64,000 nucleotides of DNA, from contig NZ_WTYU01000002.1 in NCBI RefSeq assembly GCF_009827615.1, forward strand, positions 479,020-543,019, written 5' to 3'. Made by a program: the position numbers and the translations under genes. The stretch's first letter is position 1. Each line of letters begins with the position of its first letter. A model generated the notes under the pieces. The model worked only from the letters and a program-made list of their open reading frames with translations. It ran no database searches and was not told where the DNA came from. Positions 12,996 to 26,446 of the stretch are shown here, piece by piece. Source of the DNA: Allopontixanthobacter confluentis (GTDB taxonomy: Bacteria; Pseudomonadota; Alphaproteobacteria; Sphingomonadales; Sphingomonadaceae).

Positions 12996-13997
12996 TCAAA
13001 TGTCTCCGCCGGTCAGTCTTTGGCAGACCAAATCCAGCTGGTCGAGCGTCCGATAACGGATGGTAACGGTGCCGGATCGGGGGTCAGTATCGGTCTTTAT
13101 TTTCACCGGAAGACCAAGGAATTCCTCGAGATGGCCTTGCACTGCCACAATATCGGCGTCCTTTGCCGGGTCGCGCGAGGTGCGGACAGTGCGCCGATTC
13201 GTTTCCTGAGTTGTCGAACCTGCGCGAATCATCCGTTCTACATCTCGCACGGATAATTTCTGCGCCACGACCTGTTTTGCCAATGACGCGGCATCATCAT
13301 GCCCGATCATTGCGCGGGCATGTCCCATCGATAATTTGCCGTGCTCTACCAGCGCCAGCACATCATCCGGCAAGGCCAGCAGGCGCTGAAGATTGGCAAC
13401 GTGGCTGCGCGATTTATCGACCAGCCGCGCTATTTCCGCCTGAGTCAGGCTTTCATCATCTGATAGGCGTTGATAGGCGCGCGCTTCCTCGACCGGATTG
13501 AGATCTTCGCGTTGAATGTTTTCAATCAGGGCGAGAGCCATAACTTCGCGTTCATCCAGTTCTCGGATGATTGCAGGTATTTCGTGCAAGCGCGCCTTTT
13601 GCGCGGCCCGCCAGCGCCTTTCACCCGCCACCAGCTGGTATCGGCCGCCTGCCAGCGGCCGCACGATGATAGGCTGAATGACACCTCTGGCCGCGATGGA
13701 TGCTGCCAATTCGTCCAGCGCGTCTTCATCGAAATGAGTGCGTGGCTGGCCGGGCAATGGTTCAATCGAGGCGACACTCAAGGACGCCATGCCATTGGCA
13801 GTTATCCTTGCTGGCGCTCCTGGCTCAGCTGGCGACGCGCCATCGGAAGATTTCTCGGCCTGCTGACGCACCAGTGGCTCTTCACGCCGCGTTTCGCCAA
13901 GCAAGGCGCTCAGGCCCTTGCCGAGCTTTTTCTTGTGATCGGCGGCATTGCGCGGTTGCATGGCAAAGCGGGCTGTTTCGGTCGGGGCATCACTCAT
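12996..13997 (-). CDS. parB: Chromosome-partitioning protein ParB
   Basis: CTP-dependent DNA clamp that loads at parS and spreads to organise the origin for segregation. The 333-residue protein has the N-terminal ParB/Sulfiredoxin CTPase fold (PLPGQPRTHFDEDALDELAASI, then the GERRWRAA motif near residue 125), a helix-turn-helix parS-binding region (SLTQAEIARLVDKSRSHVANLQRLL, about 182-206) and a C-terminal dimerisation domain ending in LDQLDLVCQRLTGGD. The extreme N-terminus (HKKKLGKGLSALLGE) is the ParA-stimulating peptide. Its start overlaps the parA stop by 4 nt (ATGA), so they are coupled. Four parS-like sites lie within 3.5 kb upstream. Confidence 0.97.
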   Translation of the reverse strand: MSDAPTETARFAMQPRNAADHKKKLGKGLSALLGETRREEPLVRQQAEKSSDGASPAEPGAPARITANGMASLSVASIEPLPGQPRTHFDEDALDELAASIAARGVIQPIIVRPLAGGRYQLVAGERRWRAAQKARLHEIPAIIRELDEREVMALALIENIQREDLNPVEEARAYQRLSDDESLTQAEIARLVDKSRSHVANLQRLLALPDDVLALVEHGKLSMGHARAMIGHDDAASLAKQVVAQKLSVRDVERMIRAGSTTQETNRRTVRTSRDPAKDADIVAVQGHLEEFLGLPVKIKTDTDPRSGTVTIRYRTLDQLDLVCQRLTGGDI

Positions 13998-14770
13998 GCG
14001 GCTTTCCTTTGTTCAGGCAGTCGCCCGATTAATTCACGCGCAAGGGCAATATAGGCGCGGCTGCCGGCGCAGGCATGATCATAGACCAGGGCTGGCAAAC
14101 CGTGGCTGGGTGCTTCGGACAGGCGGACGTTACGCGGAATTACCGAATCGAAAACCAGCGACCCGAGACAATCGCGAACATCGTCGGAAACCTGATCAGT
14201 CAGCCGGTTTCTGCGGTCAAACATTGTCAGGACCACGCCAATAATCCCGAGATCGGCGTTAAACCGCTGCTGCACTCTTTCTACGGTCAGCAAAAGCTGG
14301 CTGAGCCCTTCCAGCGCGAAAAATTCGCATTGCAGCGGCACCAGAAGCGTATCAGCAGCCCCCAAGGCGTTCAGCGTCAGCAGGCCGAGCGATGGCGGGC
14401 AATCGATGAAGCAGATATCATGATCGGTATGCCCGGAAAGCGCGTTGGCCAATCGGGCGGTCCGATCATCGACTGTCACAAGTTCAACCTCGGCGCCGCT
14501 CAGGTCCACCGTAGCCGGCACAATATCCAGTCCTGGAATACCAGTTGCCTGCATGCAATCATCAAGTGAGATCTCATCTACCAGAATGTCATAGCTCGAG
14601 CGTTCACGAGCATTCGTGGCCACCCCCATGCCAGTGGAGGCATTTCCCTGCGGATCCAGATCAATCAGAAGCGTTTTCCATCCCGTAGCGGCCATGGCCG
14701 TCGCGATATTGATGGCTGTGGTGGTTTTACCCACTCCACCCTTCTGATTCGCAATTGCGATCGTGATCAT
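13994..14770 (-). CDS. parA: Chromosome-partitioning ATPase ParA
   Basis: A 258-residue Walker-type ATPase (deviant Walker A KGGVGKTTTAINIA at residues 10-23) that binds the nucleoid and pulls ParB-bound origins apart. Walker B is seen in HDICFIDCPPSLGLLTLNAL, and FDSVIPRNVRLSEAPSHGLP is the family C-terminal motif. It lacks the N-terminal HTH of plasmid type Ia ParA, as expected for chromosomal ParA/Soj. Order rsmG-parA-parB on one strand, 10 bp after rsmG and overlapping parB by 4 nt, is the classic origin-proximal cluster. Confidence 0.97.
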   Translation of the reverse strand: MITIAIANQKGGVGKTTTAINIATAMAATGWKTLLIDLDPQGNASTGMGVATNARERSSYDILVDEISLDDCMQATGIPGLDIVPATVDLSGAEVELVTVDDRTARLANALSGHTDHDICFIDCPPSLGLLTLNALGAADTLLVPLQCEFFALEGLSQLLLTVERVQQRFNADLGIIGVVLTMFDRRNRLTDQVSDDVRDCLGSLVFDSVIPRNVRLSEAPSHGLPALVYDHACAGSRAYIALARELIGRLPEQRKAA

Positions 14771-14780
14771 CCTGAAACCT

Positions 14781-15401
14781 TCACTTTCTTGCCAGTTTTC
14801 CGACGATTATGCCCGAATCGTCGTCGGTTCTGGACTGTTCCACGTGGAACATCTTGCGGTCTTTTACAGACAGCAGTTCCAATTCTTGCGCTGCGGAACG
14901 GCCTTTCGGCAATAACCAAAGCGTATCCCTTGTGGAAAATCGCTCTGCAACAGCCATCATGCGGTCGAGTGGCGCGAAGGCTCTGGCGCTGATTATGGCG
15001 GCGGGGACTGTCTCAACATTTTCCAATCGGCTGCCGATGACTTCGCAATTGTCCAGTTCAAGCTCATCCCGCATGCGTTCCAGCCACTCGATGCGGCGCT
15101 TGCGAGATTCCACCAGATCCACTCTCATCTCAGGCCGCATGATTGCCACGACCAGTCCCGGCAGCCCCGCCCCGGTTCCAAGGTCCAGCCACAAGCCTGT
15201 TCCACGTGGAACATATTCAAGCAGCTGCGCGCTATCTGCGATATGTCGCTGCCAGAGTATCGGTATCGTAGCGCTGGCGATGAGGTTTTGCTGTTCGCTC
15301 TCAGCGATCAGCGCATCGACAAATTGGTCCAGCTTCTGCATGGCCGTGTCATCGCACAGGCTGGCGACATAGCTTCGCGCCGTTGCTTCATCGGCAATCA
15401 T
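14781..15401 (-). CDS. rsmG: 16S rRNA m7G527 methyltransferase RsmG
   Basis: Methylates N7 of G527 in 16S rRNA with SAM. The 206-residue protein has the family core: [18 protein letters not shown], the SAM loop [17 protein letters not shown] near residues 71-87, [17 protein letters not shown], and the late strand [13 protein letters not shown]. It starts with an ATG overlapping the mnmG stop by 4 nt. Two perfect parS 16-mers are embedded in this coding sequence (14836-14851, encoding MFHVEQ, and 15198-15213, encoding YVPRGT), so its codon use there is under a second constraint. Confidence 0.95.
14836..14851. other. parS site 1 (inside rsmG)
   Basis: Perfect 16-bp palindrome TGTTCCACGTGGAACA, matching the bacterial chromosomal parS consensus with CACGTG core. 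It lies near the 3' end of rsmG and is 840 bp upstream of parB. Confidence 0.92.
15198..15213. other. parS site 2 (inside rsmG)
   Basis: A second identical 16-bp palindrome TGTTCCACGTGGAACA, 362 bp from site 1, also inside the rsmG coding region. Confidence 0.92.
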
Positions 15402-17254
15402 GCCATGTGCCTTTCAAGTTTTCTCGCGTGGACCAGCACTGCCGACAAAGCGGCAGGGGTAATGCCAGCCACCCGCCCGGCCTCGGCAAGGTTCGCGGGC
15501 CGGGCGGCGGAAAGACGCTCGGTCATTTCGTTGGAAAGTCCGGGCACAGTTGCAAACGGAAAAGCAGACCCCAGACGAACCGATTCGCTGGCCCGCAAAT
15601 CCCGCAATTCACTGTCCTGGCGGGCAAGATATGGCGCGTACGTCGCATCTTCGGCCAATTCTGCGCCGACCTCATCTGCGGGATCAAGCCCATACGGCAA
15701 CCATTGTGCAAGCCCATCAAGATCAATGCCCCCGAAGCGCAGCCATTCATGCAGAGGCTTCGTCCCGCTATCCCGGCGCAATGGTAAACCTGCATCTGAA
15801 AGATCAGTGGCCGCGACCAGTCGGTCCAGCGCCTTCGCCCATTTGTCTGCCCGATTGCGCCGCTTTGTGAACCATTCCTGCCTGTCTGGTCCAATGCAGC
15901 CAGCATCCGTGCCTGCGGGAGTAAGGCGGGAACTCGCATTATTGGCGCGCAGGCGAAGCCTGTATTCTGCGCGCGAAGTCAGCATCCGATAGGGTTCGGT
16001 CACTCCGTGCAGGGTCAGATCGTCGATCATTACCGCGATATAGGAATTTGCCCGATCAAGCTTTGCCGGCGCGGTGCCCAGAACATTTGCCGCAGCGTGC
16101 ATCCCTGCCATCAATCCTTGCGCAGCGGCTTCTTCATATCCAGTCGTGCCATTGATTTGTCCGGCGCAGTAAAGCCCCGGCATGGGTTCCAATTCGAGGC
16201 CGCCCGTTAAAGCGCGCGGATCAATGTGATCATATTCGACCGCATAGCCGGGGACTGCCATTTCCACATTCTCAAGGCCGGCCATACTGCGAAGCATATC
16301 ATGCTGCACATCGGTGGGCAGCGAAGTGCTGATACCGTTCGGGTAGACAAGGTGCGTGCTCAACCCTTCGGGTTCGAGAAACACCTGATGCCCGTCGCGA
16401 TCAGCAAAGCGGTGGATTTTGTCTTCAATAGACGGACAATAACGCGGCCCTTGTGCACCGATTGCGCCTGAAAACAGCGGCGAGCGGTGCAGGTTCTTAC
16501 GAATAATGTCGTGGCTGCGCGCATTGGTGCGGGTGATGGCGCAAAACACTTGCGGATTGACCCTGCGCGCTGTGAGCGGAGACATGGTCCACTGGTCCTG
16601 ATCAGAAGGCTGTTCTTCCAGCACTGACCAGTCAATCGTCCGCCCATCCAGCCGTGGCGGTGTGCCTGTTTTCAGCCGCGCCATCGGCAGTTTCGCTTCA
16701 CGCAATTGCGCTGCCAGACGCCGGGCGGAATTTTCACCAATCCGCCCGCCTTCGAAGCGTTCCTCACCGCGAAACATCGTTCCACCCAAGAAGGTGCCTG
16801 TGCAAAGGATAACGGCCTGTGCATTCAGACGTCTACCATCCGCCAAAGTGACACCAGCGACCCTGCCCGCCTTCAATGTCAATGCCGCAACTTCGCCTTC
16901 AATCAGGTGCAGATCGCCCTGATGTTGCATCTGCTGCTGGATTGATGCCTTGAACAAGACCCTGTCCGCCTGAACGCGGGGGCCCCAGACTGCGCTGCCT
17001 TTGGAGCGATTGAGCATGCGATAATGGATGGCCGCCGCGTCTGCAGCCTTGCCAATCATCCCGTCGAGCGCATCCACTTCGCGCACCAGATGGCCCTTTC
17101 CCAGCCCTCCGATTGCCGGATTGCAGCTCATTGCACCGATAGCATCGAGCTCAAAGTTGATCAGAGCTACACGCGCGCCCATTCGGGCAGCAATCGCTGC
17201 TGCTTCGGCGCCGGCGTGGCCTCCTCCCACTACGAGGATTTGAAAATCTTGCAT
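15398..17254 (-). CDS. mnmG: tRNA U34 carboxymethylaminomethyl synthase subunit MnmG (GidA)
   Basis: FAD-dependent partner of MnmE that installs the cmnm5 group on wobble uridine 34 of several tRNAs. The 618-residue protein begins with the FAD dinucleotide fold [14 protein letters not shown] and has [21 protein letters not shown], both family signatures, plus [13 protein letters not shown] and YCPSIEDKI. The insert-2/C-terminal helical domain ([35 protein letters not shown]) is complete. The start is the ATG at 17254, since the upstream extension to 17290 is not conserved in type. It overlaps rsmG by 4 nt; two parS sites lie in the gap before it. Confidence 0.96.
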
Positions 17255-17314
17255 GAGTGGGCGAATAGTGCAGCGCAAACGACTGGTCAAAGGAAGACAC
17301 GACCGAATGGGCTA

Positions 17315-17330
17315 TGTTTCACGTGGAACG
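17315..17330. other. parS-like site 3 (mnmE-mnmG gap, imperfect)
   Basis: TGTTTCACGTGGAACG, which keeps the CACGTG core but differs from the perfect sites at two positions (T for C at 5, G for A at 16). Likely a weaker ParB site. It lies in the 122-bp gap upstream of mnmG. Confidence 0.75.
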
Positions 17331-17359
17331 TTGAAACAATTTTCAAAATGCATCGGCAA

Positions 17360-17375
17360 TGTTCCACGTGGAACA
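17360..17375. other. parS site 4 (mnmE-mnmG gap)
   Basis: Third perfect copy of TGTTCCACGTGGAACA, 45 bp from site 3 and abutting the mnmE stop codon at 17377. Confidence 0.92.
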
Positions 17376-24230: not shown

Positions 24231-25280
24231 TCACCCCCTCCAGCTGCGAACTTTTTCGATCAGCCGTTCGACATGGGCAATCGGCGTGAACTGCCCGATC
24301 CCATGGCCCAGGTTAAAGACATGCGGGCGGCCGGCAAAACTGCGCAGGATATGGTCGGCCTGCGCATCCAGCGCATCGCCCCCTGCCAGCAGCAGCAGCG
24401 GATCGATATTGCCCTGCACCGGCATTCCGGCAGGCAATTCGCGTGCGGCCCATACAGGATCGATAGTTTCATCAATGCCCAGCGCATCCACCCCGGTTTC
24501 CTGCGCATAGGCAGGCAGTTTTTCGCCCGAACCTTTAGGAAATCCGATGATCGGCACATCGGGATAGCGCGCCTTTACCGCCGCAACGATGGCGGCATTG
24601 GGCGCAATCACCCAGCGTTCAAACTGCGCCGGTGCCAGGCTGCCGGCCCAGCTGTCGAACAATTGCACCGCTTCTGCGCCGGCATCGATCTGCCCCGCCA
24701 GATATTCGATCGTCACGCCGACAATCGCATCGATGATCTGCTGGAAAGCCGCCGGATCGCGGTAGGCCATGGCGCGGGTATCATGCTGGTCGCGGCTGCC
24801 CTCGCCGTTCACCATATAGGTCGCCACGGTCCACGGACTGCCGGCAAAGCCCAGCAAGGTGGTCTCAGGGCCCAGCAGCGCCTTCACCTTGGCGACGGTG
24901 CGGTAAATAGCCTCAAGACGCTCTGGCACGGCTTGCAGGCCTTCCAGCGGCGATGCGAGCGGCGAAGATCGCGGCGCATCCAGCAAGCGGGGTGACAGGC
25001 GCGGACCTTCACCGACCAGGAATTCCAGTGTCTGACCCATCGCATGGGGGACGATCAGAATGTCCGAAAACAGGATCGCCCCGTCAAAGCCGAACCGGCG
25101 GATGGGCTGAATGGTCACCTCGGCTGCGGCATCGCTGTCATAGACGAGGTCCAGAAACCCGCCTTTTTCCGCGCGCAGGGCACGGTATTCAGGCAGATAA
25201 CGGCCAGCCTGGCGCATGAGCCACAAGGGTATCTGGTCAGCACGGTTTCCGCGCAGGGTTTCGATCAAAAGACCGGGCAT
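24231..25280 (-). CDS. hemE: Uroporphyrinogen decarboxylase
   Basis: Cytosolic enzyme converting uroporphyrinogen III to coproporphyrinogen III by four decarboxylations. The 349-residue TIM barrel carries the signatures PLWLMRQAGRYLPEYR (residues 19-34, with the substrate-binding arginines), GFDGAILFSDILIVPHAMG (with the essential Asp), and LLGFAGSPWTVATYMVNGEGS. The C-terminal HVFNLGHGIGQFTPIAHV is also conserved (His). Its start lies directly beside the oriC gap; origin-adjacent hemE is characteristic of Caulobacter, Rickettsia and related alphaproteobacteria. Confidence 0.97.
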   Translation of the reverse strand: MPGLLIETLRGNRADQIPLWLMRQAGRYLPEYRALRAEKGGFLDLVYDSDAAAEVTIQPIRRFGFDGAILFSDILIVPHAMGQTLEFLVGEGPRLSPRLLDAPRSSPLASPLEGLQAVPERLEAIYRTVAKVKALLGPETTLLGFAGSPWTVATYMVNGEGSRDQHDTRAMAYRDPAAFQQIIDAIVGVTIEYLAGQIDAGAEAVQLFDSWAGSLAPAQFERWVIAPNAAIVAAVKARYPDVPIIGFPKGSGEKLPAYAQETGVDALGIDETIDPVWAARELPAGMPVQGNIDPLLLLAGGDALDAQADHILRSFAGRPHVFNLGHGIGQFTPIAHVERLIEKVRSWRG

Positions 25281-25600
25281 CGAAGGAGTCCAATCAAAAT
25301 AATATAGTATTTAATAAGGATTGTAGGAGTCTGTTGGCCCTGTGGATATCGGGGACATCTGCGTTCTGCCCGATTTGTCCCAGCTTGAACAGGCTTGTCA
25401 GCTTTGCGAATCCCGATGGCTTCGCGTCAAGCAATGTTTATCCCCACTGTCCCCAGCCTGTTCAAAACCATGTTCGCCTGTCCACAAAGCCGGTTGGAAA
25501 TGGCCGGTAGTGGGTATGGAATCAGTGGTGTAACTTGTCGCCAGCTTTATCCCGTGGTTTATGCCAATTCTTGTCCACAGCCATCAAGACCCCTTTATCC
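25281..25600. other. oriC: Chromosomal replication origin oriC (hemE-ppsR gap)
   Basis: The gap has no gene but has several DnaA-box-like 9-mers relative to TTATCCACA: TTATCCCCA (25438-25446), TTGTCCACA (25571-25579) and, on the minus strand, ATATCCACA (25341-25349), each one mismatch; CTGTCCACA (25478-25486) and TTATCCATG (25595-25603) have two. An AT-rich block at 25291-25322 is the natural unwinding candidate. Five GANTC sites (CcrM type) lie in or next to it (25286, 25327, 25408, 25519, 25608). An 11-bp inverted repeat spans 25385-25465. Flanking genes match the alphaproteobacterial origin. No sequence comparison was run. Confidence 0.88.
25385..25465. repeat. Inverted repeat within oriC
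   Basis: TTGAACAGGCT (25385-25395) and its exact reverse complement AGCCTGTTCAA (25455-25465), 59 bp apart, bracketing the best plus-strand DnaA box. Purpose unknown. Confidence 0.8.
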
Positions 25601-26446
25601 ATGAGCCGACTCCACCTTCATCTGGTGTCAGATTCCACGGGCGAAACGCTCGAAATGGTCGCCAAGGCCGCCCTCGCCCAGTTCGAGGATGCCGAAATCG
25701 TGCGCCACTTCTGGCCCATGGTCCGTTCGCGCCAGCATCTGGACCGGATTGTGCCTGATCTGGCGGATAATCCCGGCCTGGTCCTGTTTACTCTGGTCAA
25801 TCCTGAAACCCGCGCCCGGCTGGAAGACCATTGCCGCCAGCTGGGCCTGCCTGCCGTTCCTGCGCTGGATGCCGTCACAGAAGCGCTGGAAAACCAGCTG
25901 GGGCAGGAAGCCCATGGCCGCCCCGGGCGCCAGCATATCATGGACGAGGCCTATTTCGCGCGCGTCGATGCCATTCATTACACCATTGCCCATGATGATG
26001 GCATTGGCTGGGAAAACTGGGAAGAAGCGGATATTGTGCTGGCAGGCGTGTCGCGCTGTTCCAAAACACCGACCAGCATCTATCTGGCCAATCGCGGGTT
26101 CAAGACCGCCAATATCCCGCTGGTGGTGGAAAGCCCCCCGCCCAAGGCGCTGTACGGGTTGCGCCACCCGCTGGTGGTGGGGCTGACAACCGCCCCCGAA
26201 CGGCTGGTGCAGATCCGCCGCAACCGGCTTCTCAGCCTCAATGAAGCGACCGAGACCGCTTATGTGGATAGTGAACGGGTGCGCGAGGAAATCCAGTTCG
26301 CGCGGCGCATGTTTGCCGATAATGGCTGGCCAGTCATTGATGTGACGCGCCGTTCCATCGAAGAAACGGCCGCAGCCGTGATCAAGCTGTATAATGAACG
26401 CGACAAGCGGGAAACCGAACCGCACATCGGCACCAATCCGATATGA
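25601..26446 (+). CDS. ppsR: Pyruvate-phosphate/water dikinase regulatory protein (kinase/pyrophosphorylase, DUF299)
   Basis: A 281-residue bifunctional ADP-dependent kinase/Pi-dependent pyrophosphorylase that inactivates and reactivates PEP synthase or pyruvate phosphate dikinase. Seen: [23 protein letters not shown] at the N-terminus and the P-loop [32 protein letters not shown] near residue 150. The ATG at 25601 gives the standard [15 protein letters not shown] start; no Shine-Dalgarno sequence is seen before it, and a degenerate DnaA box overlaps the ATG. It is the first gene right of oriC (the RP001-type position). Which dikinase it regulates here is unknown. Confidence 0.93.

Follow-up and report, generated by a model that had tools for sequence, protein, structure and literature searches.

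The hemE-ppsR intergenic region and its conservation

Does replication of this chromosome start in the short intergenic gap between hemE and ppsR? According to the account given in PMC1914354, hemE and a COG1806 gene bound both the Caulobacter crescentus origin (Cori), which was identified experimentally, and the Rickettsia origin. For Sphingopyxis granuli TFA and other Sphingomonadaceae, PMC4741004 describes a predicted origin adjoining hemE, with conserved putative boxes and a DUE, and indicates that DoriC predicts a hemE-adjacent origin for most members of the family. The gap studied here is very probably a further member of these known hemE-type origins: its flanking genes are the same as those of the Caulobacter and Rickettsia origins, which lie at the equivalent place, and the S. 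granuli TFA origin also occupies an equivalent place, a likeness drawn from its published description.

The analyzed stretch of 64,000 nucleotides (hereafter, the window) corresponds to C2:479,020-543,019, C2 being one of the four contigs that make up a 2.93-Mb genome whose closest named relatives, judged by PpsR, are Erythrobacteraceae. The candidate oriC is the entire 320-base gap (25281..25600, no strand assigned) lying between two divergent genes, hemE on its left flank (24231..25280, minus strand; Pfam URO-D, 1.5e-110) and ppsR (COG1806/RP001) on its right flank (25601..26446, plus strand; Pfam Kinase-PPPase, 4.8e-94). Downstream of ppsR come maf, aroE, coaE, and then a dnaQ-like exonuclease gene. 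The hemE side carries rho and mnmE and, further out, parB, parA, rsmG, and mnmG, the latter four named from their translations.

Among 59 genomes (own genome included), ppsR was detected in 55 and hemE in 58, and both genes were adjacent and divergent in 53 of the 55 genomes having the two. The distance between the hemE and ppsR matches ranged from 298 to 707 bp in these 53 genomes, the 707-bp extreme being due to a partial ppsR match. In one genome (G047), the record consists of a single contig whose start falls between hemE and ppsR, and in another (G033) the two genes are found on separate contigs (loci L034 and L124).

For base-level comparisons, 110 loci were taken (30 from the genome set and 80 PpsR-relative loci, the best 80 of 583), from which the removal of 3 loci lacking hemE and 8 identical gaps left 99 gaps, that of the window included. 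This set is weighted to close relatives and carries no tree, and therefore counts over the 99 gaps are not independent events.

A cluster of off-consensus DnaA boxes

Five sites of the form NTNTCCMCA were found in the gap, at 25341 on the minus strand and at 25438, 25447, 25478, and 25571 on the plus strand. Three of them, 25341 (minus), 25438 (plus), and 25571 (plus), are DnaA boxes with one mismatch each, exactly as had been proposed. In 5000 dinucleotide-shuffled versions of the gap, three one-mismatch boxes per 320 bp (mean 0.09) were never reached, nor were five NTNTCCMCA sites, while the two TCCCCA cores by themselves were not significant (267/5000 gap shuffles). The sample scanned for such clusters comprised 1,423,019 bases, the window among them, or about 48% of the genome. 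In this 1.42-Mb sample, the gap was the only 320-bp span with three sites of either kind, and two one-mismatch boxes were found in six other spans of that length. Thus, the description of this gap as the only one with a cluster of DnaA boxes holds for the window and extends to the rest of the sample. Genome-wide, 366 one-mismatch boxes were counted versus 241 for the reversed pattern. The whole window contains nine one-mismatch boxes against a chance mean of 7.0, which is no excess, and therefore the signal lies in their clustering.

Conservation over the 99 gaps distinguishes the individual boxes. Box 1, ATATCCACA (25341..25349, minus strand), points at the AT-rich stretch and has a mean core conservation of 0.95, a value also reached by the core of box R, TTGTCCACA (25571..25579, plus strand). 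Box 2, TTATCCCCA (25438..25446, plus strand; core conservation 0.81), has the TCCCCA core of the Caulobacter W-boxes and is abutted by box 3, CTGTCCCCA (25447..25455, plus strand; 0.88), and the DnaA-like box 4, CTGTCCACA (25478..25486, plus strand), is weakly conserved (core 0.69). Taken together, the five cores are 0.86 conserved versus 0.66 elsewhere in the gap, and only 16 of 10,000 random placements of five 6-mers matched this conservation. The TCCACA and TCCCCA cores stay while the first three bases vary. A further box-like TTATCC on the ppsR start codon, noted initially, is indeed present at 25595, but it was not conserved, appearing in 1 of 99 rows within a poorly aligned stretch.

All boxes of the window's gap are off-consensus, the perfect TTATCCACA being absent from it, and 22 of the 99 gaps contain no one-mismatch box. 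Off-consensus boxes and TCCCCA cores are also features of the Caulobacter origin, where TCCCCA is the published W-box core and a very weak DnaA site, as described in PMC4285127. In contrast with the Caulobacter and Rickettsia origins, the gap of the window is devoid of the TGATCCACA G-box.

Since the gap sits between divergent genes, it could be read as merely the hemE and ppsR promoters, with DnaA regulating transcription there and the origin placed elsewhere. The gap does contain a conserved TTGTCGCCAG (25535..25544, plus strand) 18 nt ahead of TTTAT, and TTGTC-N18-TTTAT, whose spacing is fixed in 82 of 99 gaps, is promoter-like in that respect. However, a sigma-70 scan gave no match to this putative promoter pair. 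The separation of the two genes in G033 also bears on this point. On the ppsR side of that genome, TTATCCACA and TTTTCCACA are retained within 160 nt upstream of the gene, with a third one-mismatch box elsewhere in the ppsR locus, whereas no one-mismatch box was found in the 4 kb of the hemE locus; the boxes therefore go with the ppsR side and not with hemE, and remain there despite the departure of the latter. As the parS sites, the skew, and the start of the G047 record all indicate the gap as well, a purely promoter role appears very unlikely.

An AT-rich stretch facing box 1

The stretch at 25291..25322 (no strand assigned), initially put forward as an unwinding candidate on its AT richness, was corroborated by composition as the top 32-mer of the window: with 84% AT, it and its three one-base shifts are the only ones among 63,968 window 32-mers to reach this value. 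Its location is shared by the relatives, since the most AT-rich 30-mer begins at most 60 nt from the hemE start in 98 of the 99 gaps. Within the oriC reading, opening might follow the Bacillus subtilis BUS type, in which DnaA-trios would accompany box 1 and a GC-rich spacer. The order box, GC-rich spacer, AT-rich stretch is alike in both, with box 1 facing the AT-rich stretch across GGGCC. When the DnaA-trio rule taken from PMC8287927 was applied, however, at least three trios within a 16-nt spacer were found in 19 of the 90 gaps with CCTGTGGA, compared with 34% in mononucleotide shuffles, and the best run in the window's own gap was of two trios. DnaA-trios beside box 1 thus showed no enrichment and fell short of the three that distinguish the Bacillus-type unit, making this manner of opening improbable.

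A clade-restricted element next to box R

Adjoining box R there is an element, TCCCGTGGTTTATGCC (25550..25565, plus strand), which contrasts with the Caulobacter and Rickettsia origins in bearing the clade-restricted TCCCGTGGTTTATNCC. It is present as TGGTTTAT in 86 of the 99 gaps, and the conservation of the TCCCGTGGTTTATNCC element over these gaps equals that of the DnaA boxes. Its 13-letter form, CCGTGGTTTATNC, has a single exact copy in the genome, which is that at the gap. Exact copies of the element were found in 25 of the 59 genomes (own included), 16 just upstream of ppsR and 9 elsewhere. A genome-wide motif was also considered and discarded, given that 11 places (one exact) matched with at most one mismatch versus 12 for the reversed control. 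In a literature search with CCGTGGTTTAT, the titles among the matches listed concerned non-bacterial subjects.

The element may consist of degenerate DnaA boxes or be the site of another factor. The former, as a tandem array, is favored from the sequence, because TTATCCCGT at 25547, TTATGCCAA at 25559, and TTGTCCACA at 25571 follow one another in 12-base steps, and because some distant rows have TTTATCCC or ATATCCC where the window has TTATGCCAA. Perfect TTATCCACA boxes were detected in 2 of the 86 gaps having TGGTTTAT versus 7 of the 13 gaps without it. A speculative possibility, to which we give limited credence, is that the Erythrobacteraceae-type origin has been remade, losing consensus boxes for weak TCCMCA-core boxes and acquiring, next to the last box, a fixed TCCCGTGGTTTATNCC that would either be bound by an initiation factor specific to the lineage, for which a CtrA-like regulator is one candidate, or alter DnaA assembly.

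CtrA sites are part of the Caulobacter origin, and not of every hemE-type member. Unlike in Caulobacter, the strict site TTAA-N7-TTAA was found in none of the 99 gaps. The loose form TTWW-N7-TTWW occurred in 31 of 99 gaps versus 7.9 expected, with a match in the window at 25547 that overlaps the conserved element. An IHF-like WATCAN5WTR sequence was located at 25292 in the window and in 17 of 99 gaps versus 5.5 expected, with a stricter form in 0 of 99.

Accumulation of GANTC sites

The five GANTC sites reported in or next to the gap were all verified, four inside it (25286, 25327, 25408, and 25519) and the fifth (GACTC, 25608) just within ppsR. The density in the gap, 12.5 per kb, is 13-fold that of the sample (0.96 per kb), and only 0.19% of the 320-bp spans have at least four sites; the excess is milder when measured against the gap itself, 69 of 5000 shuffles of which contained at least four. 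Two of the sites recur among the relatives (no strand assigned to either): that at 25327..25331 has a GANTC at the equivalent place in 67 of 99 gaps, and that at 25408..25412 is kept in 89 of 99 with a variable middle base (49 GAATC, 39 GACTC, and 1 GATTC). Retention of the latter with a split middle base, which would be expected of a methylation mark, points to selection for the methylation motif. The genome encodes GcrA and a RAMA domain as in CcrM. GANTC motifs are also described in the Caulobacter origin (PMC3973325).

Nucleotide skew and segregation sites

A GC-skew minimum at this locus had been named as support for the origin. Skew was computed from sampled data (1.42 Mb, 48% of the genome, in 20-kb stretches), with the order of contigs C1 and C2 inferred from skew sign and C3 and C4 left out. 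The sampled skew was noisy; predominantly negative values gave way to predominantly positive ones near 0.50 Mb of C2, and the opposite change occurred near 0.95-1.08 Mb of C1. In the inferred order, the cumulative minimum fell at C2:513,685, about 9 kb from the gap (C2:504.3-504.6 kb), and for C2 alone at 517,000, about 13 kb from it, with a trough at 610-620 kb almost equal in depth (-2876 versus -2976). Thus, the expected proximity was observed, but a bootstrap range as wide as C2:370-778 kb means that the skew fits the place without pinning it, and supports the region rather than the exact gap. The TA-skew minimum lies elsewhere, at odds with GC skew. A distance of about 158 kb separates the cumulative GC-skew maximum, near C1:0.90 Mb, from the single dif-like site of the genome (C1:1,060,721; three mismatches, none in the reversed control), which is near the C1 skew switch opposite the candidate origin. 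With this contig order, which omits C3 and C4, the replichores would be uneven (1.21 and 1.70 Mb).

Four parS-like sites with at most three mismatches were found within 14836..17375 (14836, 15198, 17315, and 17360; no strand assigned), 8-10 kb from the gap, versus 0.16 expected and in 0 of 100 shuffles. These palindromes (TGTTCCACGTGGAACA and near forms) are spread across rsmG and the mnmG-mnmE junction, adjoining parB (12996-13997) and parA (13994-14770), two minus-strand ORFs (12996..14770) named by reading their translations. Their position could suggest that the origin is located elsewhere, in the parAB-mnmG-mnmE block a few kb off or beside dnaA, with the gap merely binding DnaA, and the skew cannot resolve such distances. 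Nevertheless, dnaA is 341 kb from the gap, no second box cluster exists in the window or the remaining 1.42-Mb sample, and the AT maximum of the window falls in the gap, so that another location is hardly credible.

The hemE-ppsR gap, which is kept in relatives and has a skew minimum nearby, is therefore very probably the chromosomal oriC of an Erythrobacteraceae bacterium. It is pinned by its DnaA-box cluster and AT maximum, by the parS sites, and by the conservation of its flanks and box cores, which upholds on sequence grounds the candidacy proposed in the initial annotation.

A model for the origin and its implications

From these features, we infer a model of how the gap would work as an origin, whose opening and timing steps are drawn from general DnaA biology. 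DnaA would bind box 1, adjoining the AT-rich stretch, as well as the same-direction, mostly weak array formed by boxes 2, 3, 4, and R on the ppsR side, and the resulting filament would melt the AT-rich stretch adjoining hemE. Two forks would then set out from the gap and meet near dif, CcrM-methylated GANTC sites would label freshly copied origins, and parS/ParAB, 8-10 kb off, would segregate the new origins.

A hemE-COG1806 gap as origin is already known; what is less ordinary here is the combination of weak boxes with a fixed TCCCGTGGTTTATNCC motif common to close relatives, to which the GANTC retained at 25408 with a variable middle base may be added. Where PMC4741004 gives predictions for sphingomonad origins, an exact 320-bp candidate is now defined, and the 99 aligned gaps allow the parts that are kept (box 1, box R, the TGGTTTAT element, and one GANTC) to be told apart from those that are free to vary. 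The existence of weak-box and perfect-box gaps among relatives lets segment swaps probe how DnaA distinguishes the origin from other sites.
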